Assembly: GCF_009831625.1 (NCBI RefSeq)
Contig: NZ_WUUS01000003.1
Span: 124,001-188,000, forward strand
From: Halobaculum saliterrae
Lineage (GTDB): Archaea; Halobacteriota; Halobacteria; Halobacteriales; Haloferacaceae
Length of the DNA: 64,000 bases
Reading direction: 5' to 3'
Shown: one piece after another, positions 2,318-26,760 of the stretch
Numbering within the stretch: the stretch's first letter is position 1
Layout of the letters: every line of letters begins with the position of its first letter
Made by a program: the position numbers and the translations under genes
Notes under the pieces: generated by a model
The model's input: only the letters and a program-made list of their open reading frames with translations
What the model was told of the DNA's origin: nothing
Database searches by the model: none

Positions 2318-3028
2318 TCAGCGCGACAGGTCCTCATCCACGACGCGTTCACGGTCGACGAAGCGGGACTCGAACCGCGGGCTGTAGTGGAACACCGGGT
2401 CACCGTCGGGGGCGTCAAGTCCGACCGTCTCGAACAGCGAATTGGTCCGCACGGTTGCGTCGACGGGGGCGAGTTGCCACGGATCCCGCTCGACGCTTCC
2501 GATCACCATCGCTCCCGCGTCCTCGTCCGGTGTGAAGTACGTATGCCGCTCGACGAGGAACTCGGCGAGCGAGCCGGCGTCCGCGGGAGCTGGCTGACCG
2601 GTCGGCCGGTAGATCACGTCATAGCGACCGCGACCCGCTGACTTCGACCGCGCACATCGGAGGACGGTCCGGTCGCCGCGGCGGTCGAAGTCGATCGAGG
2701 CGTGCGTGAACGGAAGGCCGAACGAGCGATCCCCGACCAGCGTGCCGAGCCGCTGGCTCGTGTTACACGAGAAGAAGTGTACCCCCGGATCGTCGTCGTA
2801 CCGCACGTAGGTTCGCAGGTCGACCTCGCCGAACTCAGGGAACTGCGACATCGGGACGGCGTCGAGTCCCGCGTCGGTCACTTCGTGGGCGAGGATCGTG
2901 ACCCAGCCCGTGCCGTCGTACGTGTCGATCGTGAGTGGGTCCGGGACGGTCGCTTCGAGTCGGGTCGTTGGGACCGGCCAACTCGCGAAGAGCACGTCCT
3001 CCCCCACCAGTCGGAGCGTCGGTGCCAT
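2318..3028 (-). CDS. DUF2071 family protein (YqjF-like)
   Basis: 236 residues. The start is set at ATG 3028 because the family begins shortly before the LFASWPV motif and a TATA-like TTTTTAT (3056-3064) lies about 30 nt upstream. An in-frame ATG at 3043 is only 16 nt from that box. Features of DUF2071 are the N-terminal FASWPV...LEATVPDPL segment, a central FFSCNTSQR..G stretch and the late ATVRTNSLFETVGLDAPDGDPVFHYSP region. No biochemical role is established for the family. The gene is monocistronic and convergent with the regulator at 1184, and looks like cargo rather than a maintenance gene of the element. Confidence 0.85.
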   Translation of the reverse strand: MAPTLRLVGEDVLFASWPVPTTRLEATVPDPLTIDTYDGTGWVTILAHEVTDAGLDAVPMSQFPEFGEVDLRTYVRYDDDPGVHFFSCNTSQRLGTLVGDRSFGLPFTHASIDFDRRGDRTVLRCARSKSAGRGRYDVIYRPTGQPAPADAGSLAEFLVERHTYFTPDEDAGAMVIGSVERDPWQLAPVDATVRTNSLFETVGLDAPDGDPVFHYSPRFESRFVDRERVVDEDLSR

Positions 3029-3055
3029 GAGATACAATTTCATACGACTGGAGGC

Positions 3056-3064
3056 GATAAAAAG
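3056..3064 (-). promoter_or_regulatory. TATA-like box for the DUF2071 gene
   Basis: CTTTTTATC on the minus strand, centred about 32 nt before ATG 3028. It supports that ATG as the start. Confidence 0.5.
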
Positions 3065-3134
3065 CAGTGGCTCCTCGACTGACGGAGGTAGCTGACGATT
3101 CTCCGCCCAGAGTATCGGTTGGTGGATCGCGCTG

Positions 3135-5279
3135 TTACTTCACATCGACCGAGCTGGTCGCCGTGATCGGCGTTCCACCCGTCGTTCGCCCGGCGAGCTT
3201 CGCGACCGTATCGCCCGGTTCGAAGCCGGTCGCGTCTGTCTCGAAGTGGACGAGGAGGTCGCCGCCCCCATCGCCGGAGCCGTTCACGACCGTGCTCTTG
3301 ACCGGGGTCGCCCCGCCACAGCCGTTCACGGTCGCTCTCGAGCCGAACCGAAGCGTGTCCACGTCGATGTCTGTGGCCGGGTCGATCGATTCGGTGGCCG
3401 GAATCCGGACGGGGATCCGACCGTTGGACCCGCTGTTGATCGTCGGTGCTTTCGAACCCTTGTTCGCTCCGCGAATCTGGAACTCGAACTCCGGTGGGCG
3501 GTGGATATTGAGATAGGTGAATTGGTTGTAGATGCCACCCTGATTGTTCACCCAACCGGCCCAATCCTCAAGCAGCGGCTGATAGAGGCGCTCGTACTCA
3601 AACACCATATACGGACTGTCCTCATAGATCCGGCTCAGTGCGGCCTTCACAGCCTCCGTGCGCTCGGACTGGTCGAGTGTCGTCTCGGCGTCGCGAATGA
3701 GGTCGTCCGCGCCGCGGTATCCGGTTGGGTTCCCATACCCATCCCCGGCGATTTGATTGAGGTAGCCAAGTGTTGGCTCAAGGTTTGTCCATCCGATCGT
3801 GTACGTATCGAACGCTTGCTCAGAAAAGACCTGATCAATCAGCTGTCCGAACCCCCGTTCGGAAACCTCAGCTGGAACCCCCACCAACTCCATGTTCCGG
3901 ATCCAGCGATCGATCCCTTCGGCCTGCTTCGGGTTGAACCGGGGTAACGTCGTGAGAACGGTGAGCGCACCCTGGTCGCCCGTGCCGTCATTGTCCGTGT
4001 GTGCGGCGCCAAACGGCTCCCCGTTCACGCGCAGACGCATCCCGTCGGCGGTCTCCTCGAACGAGTAGTCGTGCTGCGCCGCAGCGTTGTCGGTGAGGAA
4101 CGCCCGCGCGGCCTCGACATCGAAGTCCCCCTGTGAATCCCTGAACAGCGTGAACTGCTCGGCGGCGGAGGCATCGGGTTCGGCCGGCCGATACTCCGAG
4201 AACGGCAACGGTGCGAGGTAGTCCCCGGCGACTGCGTCCGTGCCGCTGTGGACCTCGTTGATGTAGTACTCGTCGTCCCACAGTTTGTGTAGGAACTGTC
4301 TGAACACTTTATCGTCGAACGGGACCCGCCGCGTGTTGAACCCGGCCAGCTGGAACCCGTCCTCCTCGCTTTCGACGACGTTCACCTCACAGTTGTTCGA
4401 CCGGTACCTGTCGGCCTCGTCGTAGCTCAACGATGTGTTTATCGCGTCGACCTCTCCCTCGAGTAGGGCGGTTTTGACCGCGGATTTCGAGTCGTACTGG
4501 CGGATCTCCAACGCGTCGACGTAGGGCGGATTGTCGGCGAGGAAATCCACATCGGCCGGCATCGGATACGTCTCGTCGGCATCCGCTCGCGGTTCCAGTC
4601 GGACCCACGTCTTCGCGTCTGCGTCGAACGATGCGACAGTGAACGCACCCGTTCCGATGGGGCCGCCCTCCGCCAATGGGTCCCGTTGTGCCGGGTCAGC
4701 GACGCCGCTCCAGATATGCTCGGGCAGGACCGCGACACGGAGGAGCGACTGCCGCCACGTCGCGATCGGCTCGGTCAACTCGATCCGGAACTCGTAGGTC
4801 CCCGTCTGCTCGACACCGTCGATATACTTGCTGTTTCCGCGAGAGATGACATTTTGGGTGTCGGTCGTTTGCAGGTACTCGTAGGTGAACACAGGGTCGG
4901 CCGCGGTGAACGCCTCCCCATCGTGCCACGTTACGTCGTCACGGACCGTCACTTCGATCGCCGGCGCCTCCCCCTCGTCGACGAGTTCCCAGTCCGTGAA
5001 CAGCCACGGTTGAACCGCACTCGAATCGGGATCGAGTACGACACCCTGGTCGTACACTTGCCGAACGAGGAGGCCGTTGAGCGCGGTGTTCTCGTTGAAC
5101 GGTGACACGCCGGCTGTGGTCCCGCCCCAACCGATCGTGAACGTGCCTCCGTCACGGGGGGAGAGGTCAGAACCGGCCTGCTGGCCCGTCGTCAGGTCGG
5201 GGATCGTTGCAGCCCCGGCCGCCGTTCCCAACGCGGTGAGCAATGTTCTTCGGTCGATCGGTGAAGACATATCGCTCAT
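3135..5279 (-). CDS. ABC transporter substrate-binding protein, family 5 (peptide/nickel type), with extra C-terminal domain
   Basis: 714 residues. The N-terminus has a Tat motif (DRRTLLTALG) and a hydrophobic stretch, so the protein is exported folded. Residues ~60-590 match SBP_bac_5 (extracellular solute-binding family 5), including the TWHDGEAFTAADPVFTYEY segment. The last ~120 residues are an added domain (IPVRIPATESIDP...LRFG...DLLVHFETDATGF..GDT...) resembling a beta-rich module common in secreted bacterial and archaeal proteins. Family members are usually 550-600 residues and sit beside two permeases and two ATPases. None is nearby, so this is an orphan binding protein that may share a transporter encoded elsewhere. 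Two TATA-like strings precede the start. Confidence 0.85.
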   Translation of the reverse strand: MSDMSSPIDRRTLLTALGTAAGAATIPDLTTGQQAGSDLSPRDGGTFTIGWGGTTAGVSPFNENTALNGLLVRQVYDQGVVLDPDSSAVQPWLFTDWELVDEGEAPAIEVTVRDDVTWHDGEAFTAADPVFTYEYLQTTDTQNVISRGNSKYIDGVEQTGTYEFRIELTEPIATWRQSLLRVAVLPEHIWSGVADPAQRDPLAEGGPIGTGAFTVASFDADAKTWVRLEPRADADETYPMPADVDFLADNPPYVDALEIRQYDSKSAVKTALLEGEVDAINTSLSYDEADRYRSNNCEVNVVESEEDGFQLAGFNTRRVPFDDKVFRQFLHKLWDDEYYINEVHSGTDAVAGDYLAPLPFSEYRPAEPDASAAEQFTLFRDSQGDFDVEAARAFLTDNAAAQHDYSFEETADGMRLRVNGEPFGAAHTDNDGTGDQGALTVLTTLPRFNPKQAEGIDRWIRNMELVGVPAEVSERGFGQLIDQVFSEQAFDTYTIGWTNLEPTLGYLNQIAGDGYGNPTGYRGADDLIRDAETTLDQSERTEAVKAALSRIYEDSPYMVFEYERLYQPLLEDWAGWVNNQGGIYNQFTYLNIHRPPEFEFQIRGANKGSKAPTINSGSNGRIPVRIPATESIDPATDIDVDTLRFGSRATVNGCGGATPVKSTVVNGSGDGGGDLLVHFETDATGFEPGDTVAKLAGRTTGGTPITATSSVDVK

Positions 5280-14561: not shown

Positions 14562-17500
14562 ATGGCTGCCCGCGTCTACCTCGAGATCACGCCCAGCCCG
14601 GACCCGCTGCCGGCCGAGCGAATCACCGACCAGTTTGAGCAGCTCCACCACACCCTCGACGACTACACGATCGAAGTCCTCCTCACGACCGACGGCGACG
14701 ATATCGACTACTACCTCGGGACGGCGGCGACGGGCTTTGACGCGCTGCGTCGCGTCGCGAGCCGGCTGCTCCCCGACAGGTACGCGCTCGCAACCCACAA
14801 AGCCGACCCCCTCGCCGATCTCCCGACGGAGGCGGCCGCGATCGCGGAGCTCCACGGCGTCGGCGAGCGTCGCGACGACTGGCAGACGCGTCTCCGTCCG
14901 CCGGCACTCTCCGACGCGCCGGAGCAACACGACACCGCCCGCGTCGAGGACGCCCCCACGCTTCCGCTCACCTCCGTCGTGGAGGGGCTGGCTGCCGCCG
15001 ACTTTCCGACCGCCTACCAGGCGCTGCTCCACCCCAAGCCTGACTGGAGCGGCGAAGCGGAGGCTCGCGTTCGGCGCCTCGACCGCGAGCGCGACACCGT
15101 CGGCCAGCGCCTCACCGGTGCCCTCCTCCCGATCGATGACGACCACGACCCGGGCGACGACGATCGCCACGCCCCGCGCCGGTCGGCCCACCGCCGCGGC
15201 GACACCGGTAGCGTCCCGGGCACCCGGATCGACGCGATCCTCGCGAAGTCCGCCCGCAATTGCTACGACGTGAACGCTCGAGTGCTCGCGGCCGGCCCGA
15301 ACGCCGCCCGCCGCGCCCGCGATCTGGCGGCGACGTTCACCGCCGTCGGGGGCGACTTCTATGACCTGCGGCCGGTCACCCACGACGACCCGGGGGACGC
15401 GCTTCGCGAGGCGATCCGCACGCGGACGCTTCGCGACCCGCCGGCCACGCGTCGGCTGGCCCGCTGCCTCCCGCTCGCGAGCAACCAGTCGCCGCGGATC
15501 GTCGCCGACTCGACGACCGTCCCGCACGTCGCCCTCCTGGACGGCGCAGCGCTCACCGAGACGGCCCGTCGCGCACTCGGCGCCCTCCCCGCGGAGCGAA
15601 CGGGACTCGCGCCGCCGCCGGCGGACGCGCTCGCCCGGTACGACCGTGGGCTCGCGATCGGGCGACCACGCACCAGAGACGGCACCGCGACGGACACGAC
15701 GGTCGCGCTCCCGCCATCCCTCCAACCGTTGCACGTCGCGTGGTTCGGGAAGACTGGCTCCGGGAAATCCACAGCCTTGGTTCGCGCTATCACCGAGGAC
15801 CACGCAGTGACTGACGGGGCAGACGTCTGTATCCTCCCGAAGGGCGACGAGATGGCGACGACCCTGTTGCGCACCCACTACGCCGCACACGGCGACCTCG
15901 ACGATGTCTACTACTTCGACTGCAGCGAGACGGTCCCGGCGCTGTCGCTGTTCGACATCCGCGACGATCTGGCGGCGGGGGTCTCCCGAACGACGGCGGT
16001 CCAGGACGTCACCGACCACTACCTCGAACTGCTCCGGGCGATCACGGGCGCCGAGGCGTTCGACAGCGCCGTCCGCTCGCCGGACGTGATCCGGTATCTC
16101 GTGAAGGCGCTGTTCGACCCCGAGTACGGCGCCGATGCGTTCGCCCACCGCGACCTGGAGCGGGCGGTCCACCGCTTTCGCCGGGAGGGGGAGCCGCCGC
16201 TGGTGAGCGATGATGACCTCCGGGCGATGCTGGCGGGCGTCGCCGAGAACGACCCGCAGGCGTTCGCTCGGATCATGCAGGGCGTCGCGAACCGCGTCGA
16301 AAAAGTGCCCCTGGACGACCGGCTCGCCCGCGTGTTCAACCACGTCGCCGGCGACGACACGCCGACGTTCGACCTCGCGACCGTGCTCGACGAGGACGCG
16401 CTCGTCGTCATTGACACGGGCGGGGTGCGAGCGAAGAGCCAGCAGTCGCTGGCGCTCGTCGTGCTGTCGAACCTCTGGAGCGCCCTGCGGCAGCGGCATC
16501 GACGCCGAGAGGAGGACGACCTCCCGCTGGTCAACCTCTATCTCGAGGAGGCGGCGGATCTCGCGGTGTCGGACGTCTTGAGCGACCTGCTCGCGCAGTC
16601 GCGGGCGTTCGGACTGAGCGTGACGCTGGCGATGCAGTTCCCGGGCCAGCTCCGCGAGACGGACCCGGAGACGTACAGCGAGCTGATGAACAACGTCTCG
16701 ACACTCGTCACGGGTAACGTCGCCTTGGACACCCGCCTCCAGCAGCGGCTCGCGACCGACGAGATGGATGCCGAGGCGGTCGGTACCCGGCTTCGAGCGC
16801 TCTCCCGTGGCGAGTGGCTCACCACGTTACCGGCGCCGTTCGACGACCCCGAGCCGCAGCCGTTCGTCGTCGAGTCGCTCCCGTTGCCGGCGGGGCACCC
16901 GGAGACCGACGACGGCCTCTCCGATGCGCGCCAGGCAGCGTTTCGGGCGGAGGTCGAGATGCTGGTCCGTCGAACCCGCGCGGAGGCGGGACTCACGCTC
17001 GCGGACCCGGGATCTGCGAACGCGGTGGCGGCCGGCGGCACCCGTTCTCCCGGAGCTGACCGCCCCGGGAACGACCTCGACTCGGCGCTGCCGATGACTG
17101 ACCGGCTGCCGGAGTGCGTCCGGTACGAAGAGGCGCCGCATGCGATCGTCTGCGAGACGTGTGACGGGCGGTATGAGCCGACGGTCGAGGGGATCCGTCG
17201 CGGCGTCGGCTGCTGTGGATCCCGTGCGGATATCGACCGCGATGACGTGCCGATCTGTGCGGTTCCGCTCACGCTTTCGGAACGCGAGCGCAACGCGGCC
17301 GACCACAGCCACGAACAGTTGTTGTTCCTCCAGGCGGTGTACATGGCCCAACAGGGTCGATTCGAACCGCTCGCCTACGATCTCCTCCGGGACGGGATGG
17401 ACACGCTCCGACGAGACTGTGGCCTCGATAGTGACGCCGTCGAGGAGTTGCTCGGCGCCGGCCTGCTCAGACACGACGGGGACACGCCACACACGCTGTA

Positions 17501-18050
17501 CACGGTGACCCCCGAGGGCCGCAACCGCTTACGGGAACCACACCGCGAGGGTGACGCCCACGGTCACGGCGCGGGAGACCTCGCGGAGTCGAGCCTCCAC
17601 ACGCTGCTTGTCGAGCTGGGCCGCCGGTACATTCGACAGGAGTACGTCGACGACGAGGGGTCGCAGGCTGTCGAGGCGGTGAGCTACTACGATATGGCCG
17701 ACGGTGAGGGTCGGTACGACGCGGTCGGCCTCGATGCCGACGGCGAGGTGGTCGTCACGTTGGAGGCCGAGCGGGTCAACCATGACCGCTACACCGCGGT
17801 CCCCGACGATTACGACAAGCTCGCGGCGCCCGATCCCGAGGCCGCGGTCTGGGTGACGAAGAACGGCGCCGCGGGCCACGACGTGTTGCAGGCGCTCAAC
17901 CGCCCTGCCGACGACCACCCCCGTGTTGAGAAGAGCTACAGCGAGAACTCGCCGCCGAGCAAGTGGCGGATCGACACGCCCGGGTTCACTGAGTTGGAAA
18001 CGGCGGTCACGTTGCTCCGCGATCTCGATCATGCCTCGACCGATGGGTGA
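14562..18050 (+). CDS. VirB4/TraG/HerA-superfamily conjugation-type ATPase with extra C-terminal domains
   Basis: 1162 residues. The N-terminal ~380 residues are an element-type adaptor domain. The ATPase core has Walker A GKTGSGKS (~396-403), LPKGDEMATTLLR after it, Walker B in LVNLYLEEAADLAV (~656) and AMQFPGQLRE (the usual Q-rich sensor). This is the HerA/VirB4/VirD4 fold that pumps DNA or protein. After ~residue 840 comes a cysteine cluster (CETCDG..CCGS), a winged helix (HEQLLFLQAVYMAQQGRF...) and a terminal module with YDAVGLDADGEVVVTLEAERV...AVWVTKN, which looks like a PD-(D/E)XK-type core (inference). It is the likely motor of transfer of the element. Confidence 0.85.
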   Translation: MAARVYLEITPSPDPLPAERITDQFEQLHHTLDDYTIEVLLTTDGDDIDYYLGTAATGFDALRRVASRLLPDRYALATHKADPLADLPTEAAAIAELHGVGERRDDWQTRLRPPALSDAPEQHDTARVEDAPTLPLTSVVEGLAAADFPTAYQALLHPKPDWSGEAEARVRRLDRERDTVGQRLTGALLPIDDDHDPGDDDRHAPRRSAHRRGDTGSVPGTRIDAILAKSARNCYDVNARVLAAGPNAARRARDLAATFTAVGGDFYDLRPVTHDDPGDALREAIRTRTLRDPPATRRLARCLPLASNQSPRIVADSTTVPHVALLDGAALTETARRALGALPAERTGLAPPPADALARYDRGLAIGRPRTRDGTATDTTVALPPSLQPLHVAWFGKTGSGKSTALVRAITEDHAVTDGADVCILPKGDEMATTLLRTHYAAHGDLDDVYYFDCSETVPALSLFDIRDDLAAGVSRTTAVQDVTDHYLELLRAITGAEAFDSAVRSPDVIRYLVKALFDPEYGADAFAHRDLERAVHRFRREGEPPLVSDDDLRAMLAGVAENDPQAFARIMQGVANRVEKVPLDDRLARVFNHVAGDDTPTFDLATVLDEDALVVIDTGGVRAKSQQSLALVVLSNLWSALRQRHRRREEDDLPLVNLYLEEAADLAVSDVLSDLLAQSRAFGLSVTLAMQFPGQLRETDPETYSELMNNVSTLVTGNVALDTRLQQRLATDEMDAEAVGTRLRALSRGEWLTTLPAPFDDPEPQPFVVESLPLPAGHPETDDGLSDARQAAFRAEVEMLVRRTRAEAGLTLADPGSANAVAAGGTRSPGADRPGNDLDSALPMTDRLPECVRYEEAPHAIVCETCDGRYEPTVEGIRRGVGCCGSRADIDRDDVPICAVPLTLSERERNAADHSHEQLLFLQAVYMAQQGRFEPLAYDLLRDGMDTLRRDCGLDSDAVEELLGAGLLRHDGDTPHTLYTVTPEGRNRLREPHREGDAHGHGAGDLAESSLHTLLVELGRRYIRQEYVDDEGSQAVEAVSYYDMADGEGRYDAVGLDADGEVVVTLEAERVNHDRYTAVPDDYDKLAAPDPEAAVWVTKNGAAGHDVLQALNRPADDHPRVEKSYSENSPPSKWRIDTPGFTELETAVTLLRDLDHASTDG

Positions 18051-19030: not shown

Positions 19031-19669
19031 GATGCGACGGCCGCCGACGTGAGCGCGTGATCGTCGCGAGTTCCTCGTCAGTATATGGAAAACCCGAGTA
19101 TCTCCCGTGTGGTGAGGACCACCCGAACGAACCGGTGAGCCCCTACAGCGTCTCGAAACTGGTGTAGGAACACTACGCAGGCGTGTTCAACGAGCTACAC
19201 GATCTCCCTACGGTGTGTCTGCGATACTTCACCGGATATGGCCCCGAATGCGACCGGACATGGCCATCTCGAACTTCGTTTCTCGATGTCTGATCGATGA
19301 ACCCCCGGTGATCTACGGCGACGGCGAGCAGACGCGCGGCTTCACCTACGTTAGCGATGTGGTGGAAGCGAATCGGACGATATTGGGGAGCGATGCCGTC
19401 GCGCGAGAGGTTCTGAACATCGGAAGTACGGATAACATCACGAGCATCCACCTCGCCGAGAAGATCCGCGATCAACTCGCCCCCGATTTGGAACTTGTCT
19501 ATGAACCTGCCCGTGAGGCCGACGCGGACCACACCCAGGGTGACGTCTCGAAGGCGCGGGAACTGATCGGCTACGAGCCGACCTACGACATCCGCGAGGG
19601 TATTAAGTAGTTCATTGACCGGCACGAACAGAACCGCGACTAGTACGAGCCGTTGGTTCGGTCATCGTA
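19031..19669 (+). pseudogene. NAD-dependent epimerase/dehydratase, multiply disabled
   Basis: The SDR epimerase C-terminal two thirds are readable in pieces: RVIVASSSSVYGKPEYLP (Ser motif), PYSVSKLV-stop-EHYAG (the Tyr/Lys motif followed by TAG at 19168-19170), LPTVCLRYF, a frameshift, then MAISNFVSRCLIDEPPVIYGDGEQTRGFTYVSDVVEANR...LNIGSTDNITS...GDVSKARELIGYEP, and further in-frame TAG codons at the end. At least two frameshifts and three stops are visible. The nearest intact relative here is the gene at 28236. The N-terminal Rossmann part is missing. Confidence 0.85.
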
Positions 19670-19858: not shown

Positions 19859-21160
19859 TCACCACGTCAACCCCTCATACGTCAGTCCCTCTCGACGCTC
19901 GATCACGCGACGACCGTCGACCACCACAGGATCCGCCATCGCATCGAACTCCGAATCGAGCGCGGCAAATTCGTCCCAGTCAGTAACCACAGCGGCACCA
20001 TCAGCGCCGGTGAGCGCATCCGTGGCCGAATCGGCATACTCCAAGTCGGGGAAGTGCTCACGCATGTTCTCGGTCGCGACGGGGTCATAGGCGACGACGG
20101 CCGCGCCCCGCTTCTGCAACGCCTCGATCACAGGGATCGCCCGAGAGTTACGAACGTCGTCAGTTCCCGGCTTGAACGCCAAGCCCAACACCGCGATCCG
20201 GGCGCCAGCGAGATCTACCTCGTCTTGCAACAAGTCGACGAGTCGCTCAGGCTGTCGGTCGTTCACTTCGACGGCAGCGTTCAGTATCGCCGGCACATAT
20301 CCGGTAGCCTCGGCTGCAGTGATGAGCGCGTTCGTATCCTTCGGAAAACACGACCCACCCCACCCCAATCCGCTTCGAAGGAAGCGCTCACCGATCCTGT
20401 CGTCGAGACCGATTGCCTCGGCAACCTCGTAAGTATCGACGCCGAACTCCTTGCAGACGTTCCCGAGGTCGTTGATCAGGCTCACTTTCGCCGCGAGGAA
20501 GGCGTTGTTGGCGTACTTGATCATCATCGCGGTCGCCGGATCGGTGCGGACGATCGGCGCATCGTGCTCGGCCAGAAGCGGCGCGTACACGTCATCAAGC
20601 AACTCGGCGGCCCACTCAACAGTCGTCCCGAACACGAGCTTGTCGGGCTCGCGGAAATCGGACACGGCCGTCCCCTCCCGAAGGAACTCCGGGTTCGCAC
20701 CGAAGGCAACGCGATTACCCCCGTCGCCGGCGAGGGCCTCTCCTAGCCCTTTCTCGAGCGCATCGGCGACCTCGGGCAGTGACGGCGGTGCGACCGTGCT
20801 CTTGACCACGACGAGATGCCGATCGCTGCCCTCTGCCAGTGCCTCACCCGTCATCTCGGCGGCGGCACACAACGCTCCCGTGTCGATGCTCCCGTCTTCG
20901 CGTGAGGGCGTCTGGATCGCGAGGAACGTTACGTCCGCTTCCGGAACGTCGTCGTAGGACGTCGTGGCTCGCAGCCGGTCGCCGGCGTGCTCGGCGACGA
21001 GGTCATCGAGTTCAGGCTCGTGAATGGGAGCACGGCCGTCATTAAGCGCCGCGACGATCTCCTCGTCGATGTCGATCGCGGTCACCTCGTGGCCGAGATC
21101 GGCCAGCGAGGCAGCCAGCGTCGTGCCGACATACCCGGAACCGACGACGTTGATTCGCAT
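19859..21160 (-). CDS. aglM: UDP-glucose 6-dehydrogenase (AglM type)
   Basis: 433 residues. It oxidises UDP-glucose to UDP-glucuronic acid with NAD+, a step feeding hexuronic acids into haloarchaeal N-glycans. Seen are the N-terminal Rossmann motif GSGYVG (7-12), [27 protein letters not shown], the lysine motif [17 protein letters not shown] and the catalytic cysteine in [10 protein letters not shown] (Cys ~271), then the C-terminal UDP-binding domain ([17 protein letters not shown]). The ending YEGLTW resembles Haloferax AglM. It is divergent from aglF across 106 nt, the natural partner making UDP-sugars. Confidence 0.92.
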
Positions 21161-21266: not shown

Positions 21267-22001
21267 ATGCAAGCAGTCGTTCTCGCAGCGGGCGAGGGAA
21301 CCCGACTCCGACCGCTGACTGAGGACAAGCCCAAGGGAATGGTCGAGGTCGACGGAGCGCCGATCCTCACGCACTGTTTCGACAACCTCGTCGACCTCGG
21401 TGCGAGCGAGCTCATCGTCGTCGTGGGGTATATGAAAGAGAAGATCATCCAGCACTACGGCGACGAGTACGAGGGCGTCCCCATCACGTACGCCCACCAG
21501 CGCGAGCAGAACGGCCTCGCGCACGCACTCCTTACTGTCGAGGAGCACATCGACGACGACTTCATGCTCATCCTCGGCGACAACGTCTTCGAGGCGAACC
21601 TCCAGGACGTGGTTCGCCGACAGGCCGAGGACCGCGCTGACGCCGCGTTCCTCGTCGAGGAGGTTCCGATGGAGGAAGCCTCACGCTATGGTGTCTGTGA
21701 CACCAACAAGTACGGCGAGATCATCGACGTAGTTGAGAAGCCCGATGACCCGCCGTCCAACCTCGTGATGACCGGCTTTTACACGTTCACGCCCGCGATC
21801 TTCCACGCCTGCCACCTCGTCCAGCCCAGTAATCGCGGTGAGTACGAGATCAGCGACGCGGTGGGATTGCTCTTGGAGAGCGGCCGGACGATCGACGCGA
21901 TCCCGCTGGATGGGTGGCGGATGGACATCGGCTACCCCGAGGATCGCGACGAGGCGGATCGCCGGTTGGGGGACGAGATGGAGCCGGAAGCCGAAGCCTG
22001 A
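21267..22001 (+). CDS. aglF: sugar-1-phosphate nucleotidylyltransferase (AglF type, UTP-glucose-1-phosphate uridylyltransferase)
   Basis: 244 residues. The nucleotide-binding signature LAAGEGTRLRPLTEDKPKGM occupies residues ~6-25. LGDNVFE holds the metal-binding Asp, followed by VEKPDDPPSN and GEYEISDAV. The length fits AglF-type enzymes that lack the C-terminal left-handed beta helix. It makes UDP-glucose (or a related UDP-sugar) from UTP and sugar 1-phosphate, directly supplying AglM encoded divergently next door. In Haloferax volcanii both act in the S-layer N-glycosylation pathway. Confidence 0.9.
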   Translation: MQAVVLAAGEGTRLRPLTEDKPKGMVEVDGAPILTHCFDNLVDLGASELIVVVGYMKEKIIQHYGDEYEGVPITYAHQREQNGLAHALLTVEEHIDDDFMLILGDNVFEANLQDVVRRQAEDRADAAFLVEEVPMEEASRYGVCDTNKYGEIIDVVEKPDDPPSNLVMTGFYTFTPAIFHACHLVQPSNRGEYEISDAVGLLLESGRTIDAIPLDGWRMDIGYPEDRDEADRRLGDEMEPEAEA

Positions 22002-22560: not shown

Positions 22561-23769
22561 ATGACGATCCTCATCACCGGCGCCGATGGCTACATTGGCT
22601 GGCCCACGTCACTGCGCATCGCCTCGCGAACCGACGACCGCGTCGTGCTCGTCGACAACTTCGGCCGGCGCGAGTGGGTCTCGGAGGTCGGCTCCGTCTC
22701 GGCAAGCCCCGTCGCGGACATCGAGACGCGCCTCGAAGCTGCCGAAGAAGTCCACGGCCTCACCAACCTCTCGTTCGTCGAGGGTGACCTCACGGACCGG
22801 TCGTTCGTCGACGAACTCCTGCAGGTCCATGAACCGGACACGATCGTCCATACCGCTGCCCAACCCTCCGCCCCCTACTCCCAGATCAACGGCGAGCGCG
22901 CCAACTTCACGCAGCACAACAACATGCAGTCCACGCGCAACCTCGCGTGGGGGCTGCACGAGAACGATCTCAGCGACACCCACCTCATCGAGACGACCAC
23001 CACGGGCGTGTACGGCGCGCCGGAGTTCCCCATCCCCGAGGGCGGCGCGACGATGGAGAACCAAGGCAAACAGGATGAGGTCCCGTTCCCGGCGATGGCG
23101 GGCAGCTGGTATCACCTCACCAAGTCCCACGACGCGGCGAACCTCCGGCTCGCCAACAAACAGTTCGGCATCCCCGTCTCGGACGTCCGAACGGCGATCA
23201 CCTACGGCGCTGCGACCGAGGAAACCGCAGCAGACGACCGCCTCGCGACGCGCTTCGACTTCGACTACTACTTCGGCGTCGTCGCCCACCGCTTCGCCGC
23301 GCAGGCGATCGCGGGCTACCCGATCACCGTGTACGGCAAGGGCGAACAGCGCAAGCCGTTCGTCTCCCTCGAGGACGCCGTCGAGGGGCTCGCGCGACTC
23401 GCGTTGAACGACCCCGACGACCGCCCGGACGACCACGTCGTCTACAATCAGGTTACGCGCCCGATCTCCATCGTCGAGATGGGGACGACCATCGCCGAGG
23501 TCGCCACGGAGTTCGGCTTCGACACGGCGGTCGAGCACTTCGAGAACCCCCGCGACGAGGACGAGACCCACAAGATGGAGATGGAGAACGACCGCTACAT
23601 GGACCTCATCGGCGACCAGCAGGTCACCTTCGAGGAGGGCATCCGCGGCGTCTTCGAGCGACTCGAGGACCACGCCGACCGCATCGGCGCCTACGAGGAC
23701 CGCTTCCTCCCCGGCGTCCTCGAGGACCGCCTCGACGAGGAGGAGGCGCCCGCGGCCGGAGACGACTAA
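22561..23769 (+). CDS. UDP-sulfoquinovose synthase-like SDR (SQD1/Agl3 family)
   Basis: 402 residues, the length of SQD1. It converts UDP-glucose and sulfite to UDP-sulfoquinovose. Seen are the Rossmann motif GADGYIG (7-13), NFGRREW after the first strands, the active-site ETTTTGVYG (~144-152), WYHLTKSHD (Tyr ~184, Lys ~188, matching the plant Thr145/Tyr182 layout) and the long C-terminal KGEQRKPFVSLEDAVEGLARLA and VYNQVTRPISI segments. In Sulfolobus the homologue Agl3 makes sulfoquinovose for N-glycans. Here it follows aglF and starts a run of three co-directional epimerases, so a sulfonated surface sugar is likely. Confidence 0.88.
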   Translation: MTILITGADGYIGWPTSLRIASRTDDRVVLVDNFGRREWVSEVGSVSASPVADIETRLEAAEEVHGLTNLSFVEGDLTDRSFVDELLQVHEPDTIVHTAAQPSAPYSQINGERANFTQHNNMQSTRNLAWGLHENDLSDTHLIETTTTGVYGAPEFPIPEGGATMENQGKQDEVPFPAMAGSWYHLTKSHDAANLRLANKQFGIPVSDVRTAITYGAATEETAADDRLATRFDFDYYFGVVAHRFAAQAIAGYPITVYGKGEQRKPFVSLEDAVEGLARLALNDPDDRPDDHVVYNQVTRPISIVEMGTTIAEVATEFGFDTAVEHFENPRDEDETHKMEMENDRYMDLIGDQQVTFEEGIRGVFERLEDHADRIGAYEDRFLPGVLEDRLDEEEAPAAGDD

Positions 23770-23798: not shown

Positions 23799-24758
23799 AT
23801 GCACGTTCTCGTTACCGGCGGCTGTGGCTACATCGGCAGCGCGCTCGTTCCGATCCTCCGGGACGACGACCGCGTCGATCGCATCACCATTCTGGACAAC
23901 CTGTCGATGTCCTCGCCCCGCAACCTCATGGGCAGCGGGCTCGGCAGCGACGACCGACTGCGCTTCCGACGGGGCGACATCACTGAGTACGGCGACGTGG
24001 AGTCAGCGATGCGCGGGTGTGATACCGTCATCCATCTCGCGGCGATCACGGGCGCCGACAGCACACACGACCGACGCGAGGAGACCTTCACCGTCAACTA
24101 CGACGCGACGCGCAACATCCTCCGCGCGGCAGGGAAGCTCGACGTCTCGAACGTCGTGTTCGCTTCCTCGTGTAACATCTACGGTCGTGCGGCCTCTCGC
24201 GATATCGACGAGACGGTCGACCCGGACCCGCTGAACCCCTACGCGGAATCGAAACACGAGGCGGAAACCCTCCTCGCGAACGCGATCGAGGAATACGGCA
24301 TCGACGGCACTGCACTCCGGATGAGCACGAACTACGGCTACTCGCCGGGGATGCGGTTCAACCTCGTCGTCAACCACTTCGTGTTCCGGGCGATCACCGA
24401 CCGACCGCTCACGGTGTACGGCGACGGCTCGAACTGGCGGCCGTTCATCCACGTGAGGGACGCCGCCCGGGCATACGCCCAGGCCGCACTCGAACCGGGG
24501 AACTGGCCCGAACAGGTCTACAACGTCGGGGCCAACGACAGCAACTACCGCGTCGAGGAGATCGCCGAGGCCGTCCGCGACGAACTCGACCGCGACCTCG
24601 ACATCACATATCTGGAGGACGAGCACCCGGGGCCCTCGTATCACGTGAACTTCGACCGCGTCGCCGAGACGGGGTTTGAGCCCGAACACGACCTTCACGA
24701 GGGGATCGCTGGCCTGGCCGAGCGATTCCAGAACGGTACTGGAGGGGAACACCGGTGA
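23799..24758 (+). CDS. NAD-dependent epimerase/dehydratase (extended SDR)
   Basis: 319 residues. GGCGYIG (7-13) binds NAD. The catalytic Ser is in ASSCNIYG (~123), and Tyr148/Lys152 are in YAESK. The C-terminal half binds the nucleotide sugar (VYGDGSNWRPFIHVRDAARA). The substrate cannot be deduced, and 4-epimerase or 4,6-dehydratase activity on a UDP- or dTDP-sugar is usual. It starts 29 nt after the sulfoquinovose synthase stop and is probably co-transcribed. The spacing to the next epimerase is 67 nt. Confidence 0.88.
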   Translation: MHVLVTGGCGYIGSALVPILRDDDRVDRITILDNLSMSSPRNLMGSGLGSDDRLRFRRGDITEYGDVESAMRGCDTVIHLAAITGADSTHDRREETFTVNYDATRNILRAAGKLDVSNVVFASSCNIYGRAASRDIDETVDPDPLNPYAESKHEAETLLANAIEEYGIDGTALRMSTNYGYSPGMRFNLVVNHFVFRAITDRPLTVYGDGSNWRPFIHVRDAARAYAQAALEPGNWPEQVYNVGANDSNYRVEEIAEAVRDELDRDLDITYLEDEHPGPSYHVNFDRVAETGFEPEHDLHEGIAGLAERFQNGTGGEHR

Positions 24759-24825: not shown

Positions 24826-25812
24826 ATGAGCACGACAGACGACGTTCACGTTGCGGTCACCGGTGCGGCCGGATACATCGGCAGTCGCGTCGTCAAGATA
24901 CTCCAGCGCGACCATCCGGAGTGGGAGATCACCGCCCTCGACAACTTCTACCTCGGGACCGTCCGACAGATCGACGACGTCGAGGTCGAACACATGGACA
25001 TCCGCGATCGGGACTACCTCGAGGACGCGCTCGCGGGTGCCGATATCGTCATGCATCTCGCGGCGATCAGCGGCGTCGACGACTGCGACACCAACCGTGA
25101 CCTCGCGTACGACGTGAACGTCACGGGCACGAACAACGTCGCGTGGTTCTGTCGCAAGACCGGCGCCGGGTTAGTCTTCCCGTTCAGTATGGCCGTCCTC
25201 GGCGATCCGGAATCGTTCCCGATCTCCGTCGACGACCCGCGCGATCCGCTGAACTGGTACGGGCGGACGAAGGTGCTCAACGAGCGTGCTATCGAGTCGT
25301 TCGCCGACGGCGCGTTCCCGGCGCACCTGTTCCTGAAGTCCAATCTCTACGGCGAACACACGATCGGCGACACCCGCGTCTCGAAGGGGACCGTGATCAA
25401 CTTCTTCGCGAACCGTGCCGCCGCTGGGGAGACCCTCACTGTGTATGAACCGGGGACACAGGCGCGCAACTTCATCCACGTGAAGGACGTGGCTCGTGCG
25501 TACGTCCACAGCGCTGAACGGCTCCGCGAGCAACTCGCCGCCGGCGAGACCGGAGTCGAACAGTACGAGATCGCCTCCCGTGAGGACCCCGGCGTGATGG
25601 ACGTCGCCGAACTCGTCCAGCAACACGCCGCGGAGATCCTCAACTCCGAGGTCGACATCGGGGTCGTCGAGAACCCGCGCAGCGGGGAGACGATGGTCGA
25701 GTCCTTTGAGGTGGACATCTCGGCGGCCGAGGAGACGCTCGGATGGACTCCCCAGGAGACGGTAGAGGGATCGATTCGGGACCTCCTCGAGGCGAAGGCG
25801 CGGGCTGAGTAA
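24826..25812 (+). CDS. NAD-dependent epimerase/dehydratase (extended SDR)
   Basis: 328 residues. GAAGYIG near residue 14 is the NAD motif. PFSMAVLGD supplies the active-site Ser (~121), and WYGRTK gives Tyr ~145 and Lys ~149. VYEPGTQARNFIHVKDVARAY is the substrate-side hallmark. LFLKSNLYGEHTIGDTRVSKGTVINFF replaces the more common LRYFNVYG, so it is a distinct subfamily from its two neighbours. It ends 3 nt before the convergent TrmB regulator and is the last gene of the run that starts at 22561. Confidence 0.87.
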   Translation: MSTTDDVHVAVTGAAGYIGSRVVKILQRDHPEWEITALDNFYLGTVRQIDDVEVEHMDIRDRDYLEDALAGADIVMHLAAISGVDDCDTNRDLAYDVNVTGTNNVAWFCRKTGAGLVFPFSMAVLGDPESFPISVDDPRDPLNWYGRTKVLNERAIESFADGAFPAHLFLKSNLYGEHTIGDTRVSKGTVINFFANRAAAGETLTVYEPGTQARNFIHVKDVARAYVHSAERLREQLAAGETGVEQYEIASREDPGVMDVAELVQQHAAEILNSEVDIGVVENPRSGETMVESFEVDISAAEETLGWTPQETVEGSIRDLLEAKARAE

Positions 25813-25815
25813 CCG

Positions 25816-26676
25816 TCAGGAGTCGCTGTGCGGGTCCGCGTCGAGCGTGTCGTGGTTCCACGTGAGATCGAAGTAGCGGCTCAATCCGGCGACGAACGAG
25901 TGGTTCTCGGTCACCGCAGCCTGCCGCTTGTGTAGCGGAACGTCCTCTTCCTCGACGAGAAGGACGGCGTCACCGGAGTCGTAGTCCAAACTGGGATCGA
26001 TGAGCGTTCCCCGCCAGGGGAGCCGTGTCGCGCTGAAGCGGTACTCGACTGCGGGGTACTCCGTGCGGAGGTACTCCACCATGTCCCGCTGGACCGACCT
26101 GTTCTCCGGTTCCAAGAGGTCAGGGTCGAGAAACAGAACCCGGAGCGCACAATCTCGCTCGTGCGCGTCCGCGAACGCGGGTTCGATCGCCTCGAAGTAC
26201 TCGAAGCTCTTCGTGATGATCCGGATCTCGCGTTGCGCGTCCGCGTACAGGGTCCTGGTCTCGCGCTCGCTCGGGTCACCGACGTCGACGACGTGAAACA
26301 GCTCCTCCGTCGGAGAGATGTCCTCGCTAGCCTGTTCGTACAGCGGCCCAAACGCCGCGACGAACTCCTCGCGAGTGTCCTCGATCCGAGCTCGGTCGGT
26401 CTCGTAGGTCTGTCGACGGTTCTCGATCGCCCTATCGAGGATCTCCTCGGGCGATTTCGATTGATACTGTTTCGGCCGACCGGGGATGACCTTGAGATAC
26501 CCCAGATCGGCTAGCTCGTCGAGGACACCGTAGATACGCGCCTTCGGAATGCCTGTGGCCTCCGAAAGATCGGGCGCCGTCGTTCGCCCCAACTCGATCA
26601 GGCGCTCGAGTGCCTGCTCCTCGTACTCAGTCAGCGCAAGTGGATCGAGAAGAGATTCCGTGTCGGGGGTGCTCAT
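25816..26676 (-). CDS. TrmB-family transcriptional regulator
   Basis: 286 residues from ATG 26676. ATG 26757 is also in frame, but it would overlap the promoter of the divergent small gene. The N-terminal winged helix (LTEYEEQALERLIELGRTTAPDLSEATGIPKARIYGVLDELADLGYLKVIPGRPKQY) is diagnostic of TrmB, followed by a coiled linker and a C-terminal ligand domain (TRTLYADAQREIRIITKSFEYFEAIEPAF...). TrmB-type proteins sense sugars and control sugar genes. Its position, tail to tail with the epimerase run, suggests control of sugar metabolism or of itself (inference). Confidence 0.87.
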   Translation of the reverse strand: MSTPDTESLLDPLALTEYEEQALERLIELGRTTAPDLSEATGIPKARIYGVLDELADLGYLKVIPGRPKQYQSKSPEEILDRAIENRRQTYETDRARIEDTREEFVAAFGPLYEQASEDISPTEELFHVVDVGDPSERETRTLYADAQREIRIITKSFEYFEAIEPAFADAHERDCALRVLFLDPDLLEPENRSVQRDMVEYLRTEYPAVEYRFSATRLPWRGTLIDPSLDYDSGDAVLLVEEEDVPLHKRQAAVTENHSFVAGLSRYFDLTWNHDTLDADPHSDS

Positions 26677-26754
26677 ACCGGGCATATGGGCGTCTGGTTG
26701 AAAAGCCACGGCGGTTGCTGCCGAATCGACGAGTGGTCCGCTATCCGATAGCTT

Positions 26755-26760
26755 CATATT
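26755..26760 (+). promoter_or_regulatory. TATA-like box of the 44-residue gene
   Basis: CATATT centred about 28 nt before ATG 26786, suggesting a leaderless transcript. It lies in the gap to the divergent TrmB gene. Confidence 0.5.

Follow-up and report, generated by a model that had tools for sequence, protein, structure and literature searches.

Genes at the locus

The analyzed window, a stretch of 64,000 nucleotides from Halobaculum saliterrae, contains the following genes around the one of interest (positions are those of the window):

19859–21160, − strand: aglM, UDP-glucose 6-dehydrogenase (NF041297, 730.5 bits, cut-off 670)
21267–22001, + strand: aglF, UTP-glucose-1-phosphate uridylyltransferase (NF041313, 440.8 bits, cut-off 400)
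22561–23769, + strand: SQD1-like SDR, here called AQP type, 402 aa (H97, P102, T147, T148, V150, Y151, Y184, K188, R210)
23799–24758, + strand: SDR2, NAD-dependent epimerase/dehydratase family, 29 bp after the SQS-like gene
24826–25812, + strand: SDR3, NAD-dependent epimerase/dehydratase family, 67 bp after SDR2
25816–26757, − strand: TrmB-family (sugar-sensing) transcriptional regulator, convergent with the triad

The open frame occupies exactly 22561–23769 on the + strand, as originally predicted, and has a strong third-position GC bias, the codon bias typical of a real gene. The predicted aglF neighborhood is also confirmed, with aglF and aglM lying upstream and both scoring above their profile cut-offs. 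The complete three-SDR arrangement SQS-SDR2-SDR3 is present in the window. Judged from the spacing, the three genes are probably co-transcribed; because a 559-bp gap precedes the triad, aglF is probably on a separate transcript. Beside aglM, two adjoining PF01370 epimerase-family pieces (19045–19424, + strand), one with an internal TAG, resemble a decayed epimerase gene. Further upstream of the glycan genes, a 1162-aa ORF (14562–18050, + strand) with weak TraD/TrwB coupling-protein matches possibly encodes a conjugation-type ATPase.

The window protein has the SQD1 fold

The window protein is related to SQD1 beyond doubt, and the homology to SQD1/Agl3 named in the original prediction stands. 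In a PDB sequence search, SQD1 entries matched the 402-aa protein at E 5e-69 and the next match fell to 6e-5. An AlphaFold model built from 20 sequences (pLDDT 84.7, pTM 0.88; locally less confident, with pLDDT of ~60 around residues 101–110 and 67–84 in parts of 151–190) matched SQD1 (1i24) with TM 0.87/0.89 and E 9e-33, the next fold following at E 2e-20. The protein combines the SQD1-type extended SDR fold with the NAD-binding GxxGxxG and YxxxK motifs. Against the UDP-sulfoquinovose synthase profile NF041015 it scored 346 bits, below the 575-bit cut-off. That threshold is strict: two control genomes gave a match, and only one of them passes it. Among named organisms, Halopenitus (H. persicus, 86%) and Haloquadratum walsbyi (J07HQW1 copy, 82%) have the closest relatives.

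Two residues essential in Agl3 are replaced

In mutagenesis of Agl3, the alanine mutants H95A, R101A, M145A, Y182A and K186A are inactive, T144A is active, and E147A and Y148A retain 12–15% activity (12% for E147A) (Zolghadr 2015, PMC4388408). The Agl3 motifs EQRSAP and TMGEYGTP, read from the mutagenesis primers of that paper, are identical to those of SQD1 at these sites. The window protein has AQPSAPYS and TTGVYG instead, with P102 for Agl3 R101, T148 for M145 and V150 for E147, and R210 in place of SQD1 N208. Three of the five essential residues are thus present (H97, Y184 and K188) and two are substituted. The published UDP-sulfoquinovose synthase fingerprint, [ST]MGxnYx3K (PMC8987622), is absent as well, TTG being found in the window protein and in 134 of 135 clade members. 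The active-site layout of SQD1/Agl3, predicted to be complete, is therefore not. H95, T144, Y148, Y182, H183 and K186 (Agl3/SQD1 numbering) are retained, leaving the SDR triad intact. Among window-type proteins, the C-terminal NPRxE motif of SQS is also kept and the SQS-specific motif L(N/H)QG is replaced by VRTA.

These changes are close to invariant. In an alignment of 135 haloarchaeal and related archaeal sequences, the R101 column holds proline in all 135, the M145 column holds threonine in 134, and the E147 position is V, I or L. The canonical set used for comparison comprised seven sequences: SQD1, those of Pseudonocardia, Sinorhizobium, Pelagovum, Rhodococcus and Agrobacterium, and one archaeal sequence (L133). 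All seven have arginine at the R101 column and M, L or I at the M145 column. The third fixed change of the clade is N208 to arginine, at a column where the canonical set has N, H or Y. The change of E147 to valine was considered as a diagnostic loss and rejected because bacterial synthases also carry valine there (four of the seven canonical synthases, including the probable SqdB of S. meliloti). The pocket wall equivalent to R101 varies with the preference for Glc or GlcNAc, being Lys85 in GalE of B. longum and Gly102 in WbpP (PMC6668579; PMC12820599); the correspondence of R101 to these two residues comes from our own motif alignment.

A distinct archaeal clade

Judged by sequence, the window gene belongs to the AQP type, an archaeal clade of its own within the UDP-sulfoquinovose-synthase fold. 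The window protein has the clade's AQPSAPYS, T[TM]G[VIL]YG and arginine at the SQD1 N208 column, and it falls within the monophyletic group. In a tree of 45 rows, obtained by a quick search, a single branch (SH-aLRT 100, length 1.38) separates all AQP-type sequences from the R101-bearing synthases; one odd sequence, L134, is long-branched and its placement is unsure. Among the archaeal loci read, only L133 and L134 fall outside the AQP type.

In the window's family, 36 of 170 genomes carry an SQS-like gene; such genes are also present in other Halobacteria and elsewhere among archaea of the phylum. In Haloarcula the gene is found in 31 of 32 genomes; the genus was recognized because two of its members match H. 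vallismortis and H. argentinensis with 100% protein identity. All 28 good genomes carry one copy each, the only SQS homologue found there, and the 18 further Haloarcula loci read are all of the AQP type. We infer from this genus-wide distribution that H. hispanica itself has the gene. The Haloferax volcanii control genome gave no match to an SQS-like gene of either type, and no homologue was found in the phage records searched.

Two unusual members were encountered. The protein at L164 (7462–8979, − strand; genome G179) is intermediate, with EISSAPYS and TMGEMG and a long branch in the tree; its gene neighbors are SDR2-like, TrmB, polysaccharide deacetylase, phosphodiesterase, GlmU and GlmS genes. 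At L169 (8328–10589, − strand; genome G070), the SQS-like gene is split by an in-frame insert of ~350 aa that begins with Cys, ends in GN before Ser and matches LAGLIDADG_3, features of an intein-like element within the catalytic YHxxK motif; a split of the same size occurs in G158.

Linkage to glucosamine genes

Gene neighborhoods were compared by all-against-all BLAST of 33 representative loci, the window and two other copies. Among the 78 loci with enough flank, the SQS-like gene is followed by SDR2 in 73, SDR3 lies within 1.4 kb in 60, the strict triad is found in 60 and a TrmB regulator is near the triad in 25.

The commonest Pfam domains encoded by 130 same-strand neighbors are those of GlmS, followed by GlmU-like NTP-transferase and hexapeptide domains. 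GlmS is found nearby in 24 of 82 loci of up to ~19 kb, mostly in the same orientation and behind a GlmU-like gene. In the window-family set, a GlmS gene is no more than 10 kb from 24 of the 35 SQS-like copies and shares the strand with 21 of them. For aglM, a nucleotide-sugar gene of these genomes that served as control, the corresponding numbers are 8 of 33 and 2. The Fisher p-values of 1.9e-6 for the same strand and 3e-4 for any strand are optimistic because closely related genomes are not independent. The linkage recurs with differing gene orders in distant archaea: SQS-SDR2-SDR3-GlmU-GlmU-GlmS form a single row at L163 (genome G365), and SQS, SDR2, two GlmU genes and GlmS share one strand at L157. 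No GlmS was found at the canonical synthase loci read, nor near those Haloarcula copies for which wide flanks were read. An N-deacetylase, hinted at by L009 and L164, was considered as a further linked gene and rejected, its homologues being found in few loci and without enrichment.

The window genome has three full GlmS genes and a second cassette (L009, 9536–16960; G000:C6:187536 onward), in which SQS-SDR2-SDR3 and TrmB are followed by GlmU-like and GlmS genes. The two SQS-like proteins are identical at 382 of 404 aligned positions. The genes around this second copy form a surface-polysaccharide cluster that includes genes for glycosyltransferase, sugar transferase and flippase, and the link to surface glycans made in the original prediction is supported. 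No GlmS lies near the window copy (the nearest is 59 kb away), and the nearest nucleotide-sugar genes are aglF and aglM, which concern UDP-glucose. Linkage to GlmS/GlmU thus holds for the clade and for the C6 copy of the window genome, not for the window copy.

No sulfur-assimilation family is among the 25 commonest neighbor families, and a linked sulfite source was not found among them. On a Pelagovum pacificum plasmid (L123, 4179–4907, + strand), a canonical R101-type synthase gene is directly followed by one for phosphoadenylyl-sulfate reductase, the likely sulfite supplier there. Just upstream of the gene row at L163, a membrane protein of PF03601 (Cons_hypoth698), a family of proposed sulfate exporters, is encoded at 2909–4246 (+ strand) and is a possible sulfur link.

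Sulfonated sugars of haloarchaea

The original prediction regarded a sulfonated S-layer sugar in a haloarchaeon as notable; the premise that it would be new is outdated. As cited in a later paper, the S-layer of Haloarcula hispanica carries N-linked 6-sulfo-QuiN in the N-glycan 6-sulfo-QuiN-(1,6)-[Glc-(1,2)-]Gal, and DolP-QuiNS was detected in the same species (Lu 2015, cited in PMC9943897). Sulfoquinovose has been reported at Asn-732 in Haloferax volcanii, whose genome was remarked in the same paper to have no synthase homologue (PMC4245038), and neither synthase type accounts for it. An H. walsbyi operon of SqdB and two GalE homologues was described in 2006 (Bolhuis 2006, PMC1544339), and the Agl3 study sets apart a divergent haloarchaeal "cluster IV" of UDP-sulfoquinovose synthases (Zolghadr 2015, PMC4388408). 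Our search of the open-access literature, subscription papers lying outside its scope, found no report tying haloarchaeal SqdB to 6-sulfo-QuiN and no enzyme assigned to this sugar.

Proposed function

We see about an even chance that the AQP-type enzyme acts on UDP-GlcNAc or another UDP-glucosamine derivative, not on UDP-glucose, and yields a UDP-6-sulfo-quinovosamine donor. This donor appears the most likely product because of the pocket position of R101 and the 6-sulfo-QuiN and DolP-QuiNS of H. hispanica. The enzyme would use NAD+ to oxidize C4 of the sugar with Y184, K188 and T147; water would be eliminated from C5–C6 and sulfite added at C6, and reduction of C4 would give the donor, with or without an N-acetyl group, for use in surface glycans. 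The sulfo-sugar would probably be finished or epimerized by SDR2 and SDR3. We infer the substrate, the addition of sulfite, the roles of SDR2 and SDR3, and a use in N-glycans rather than in lipid or exopolysaccharide. More tentatively, the clade as a whole may make archaeal sulfoquinovosamine as a C6-sulfonate synthase of UDP-GlcNAc (or UDP-GlcN), which would give the SQD1 fold a second class of substrate. The amino-sugar reading is supported by SQD1 as the nearest fold, the fixed AQP signature, the single clade, the GlmS/GlmU linkage and the core status of the gene in Haloarcula. Against it stand the position of the window copy beside aglF/aglM instead of glmS and the wide-flank Haloarcula copies without GlmS. 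The lack of common sulfur neighbors and the loss of R101 and M145, which gives states resembling ordinary 4-epimerases, also argue against it.

The original prediction was that UDP-sulfoquinovose is made from UDP-glucose. Under that reading, which we regard as improbable, the gene would encode a true UDP-sulfoquinovose synthase, joining UDP-glucose and sulfite for sulfolipid or N-glycan, with the substitutions tolerated. The SQD1 fold with conserved H95, T144, Y148, Y182, H183 and K186, the valine shared with the probable S. meliloti SqdB and the adjoining UDP-glucose genes are consistent with it, as are the SqdB annotation in H. walsbyi (PMC1544339) and the placement among UDP-sulfoquinovose synthases as a divergent cluster IV (PMC4388408). 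It is opposed by the replacement of R101 and M145, both inactive as alanine mutants, in 135/135 and 134/135 sequences, by the missing [ST]MG fingerprint, and by a linkage to GlmS/GlmU, not glucose, that the canonical loci read do not share. UDP-sulfoquinovose is therefore unsupported as the product, and a sulfonated amino sugar is likelier than ordinary sulfoquinovose because of the altered active site and the glucosamine-making neighbors. A sulfur-free pathway, unlikely in our estimate, is nevertheless a serious rival because the replaced motifs resemble those of ordinary epimerases: EQR, TMG and L(N/H)QG have all given way to states found in 4-epimerases. The SQD1 fold would then have been re-used as an NAD-dependent epimerase/dehydratase in a three-SDR route to another UDP-amino sugar, such as a deoxy or epimerized GlcNAc, which would suit the linked GlmS/GlmU and two further SDRs and the absence of sulfur genes from the common neighbors. 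It fits less well with the persistence of NPRxE and the overall SQD1 fold, and some enzyme must sulfonate C6 to make the 6-sulfo sugar of Haloarcula, where this gene is core and no other SQS homologue was found.

SQD1/Agl3-type synthases are the known route to a carbon-sulfonate sugar nucleotide. If a sister clade was retuned to amino sugars, this would explain the 6-sulfo-quinovosamine of Haloarcula N-glycans and provide an enzyme source for making sulfonated amino sugars. It would also correct an annotation applied to haloarchaeal genomes since 2006: the clade, which extends across Halobacteria and into other archaea of their phylum, has so far been annotated as UDP-sulfoquinovose synthase. 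For the AQP clade, the sulfoquinovose label on archaeal genomes, and the sulfolipid and sulfur-cycle inferences derived from it, may be incorrect.

Comparison with known systems

The window gene belongs with the H. walsbyi sqdB operon and cluster IV, as far as the passages describing these go: the gene and the three-SDR operon are the same, with 82% identity to the J07HQW1 copy. Those passages name the enzyme a UDP-sulfoquinovose synthase or link it to sulfolipid, and mention neither the lost essential residues nor a linkage to GlmS/GlmU. With SQD1 (1i24) and Agl3 the window protein shares the SDR fold, the NAD site, H95, T144, Y148, Y182, K186 and NPRxE, at 32% identity to SQD1 over the structural alignment. 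The clade departs from them by having P for R101, T for M145, V or I for E147 and VRTA for L(N/H)QG, and by its linkage to glucosamine genes and two more SDRs; the window protein also scores under the NF041015 cut-off. WbpP and GalE are likewise extended SDRs, with Gly (WbpP) or Lys (GalE) instead of arginine at the R101 position and arginine at the SQD1 N208 position, but are clearly farther from the window protein than SQD1 is, by both sequence and fold. The 6-sulfo-QuiN and DolP-QuiNS of H. hispanica, as summarized in the citing paper, represent a sulfonated amino sugar in a genus in which the gene is core, and are presumably the product to which this gene is linked.
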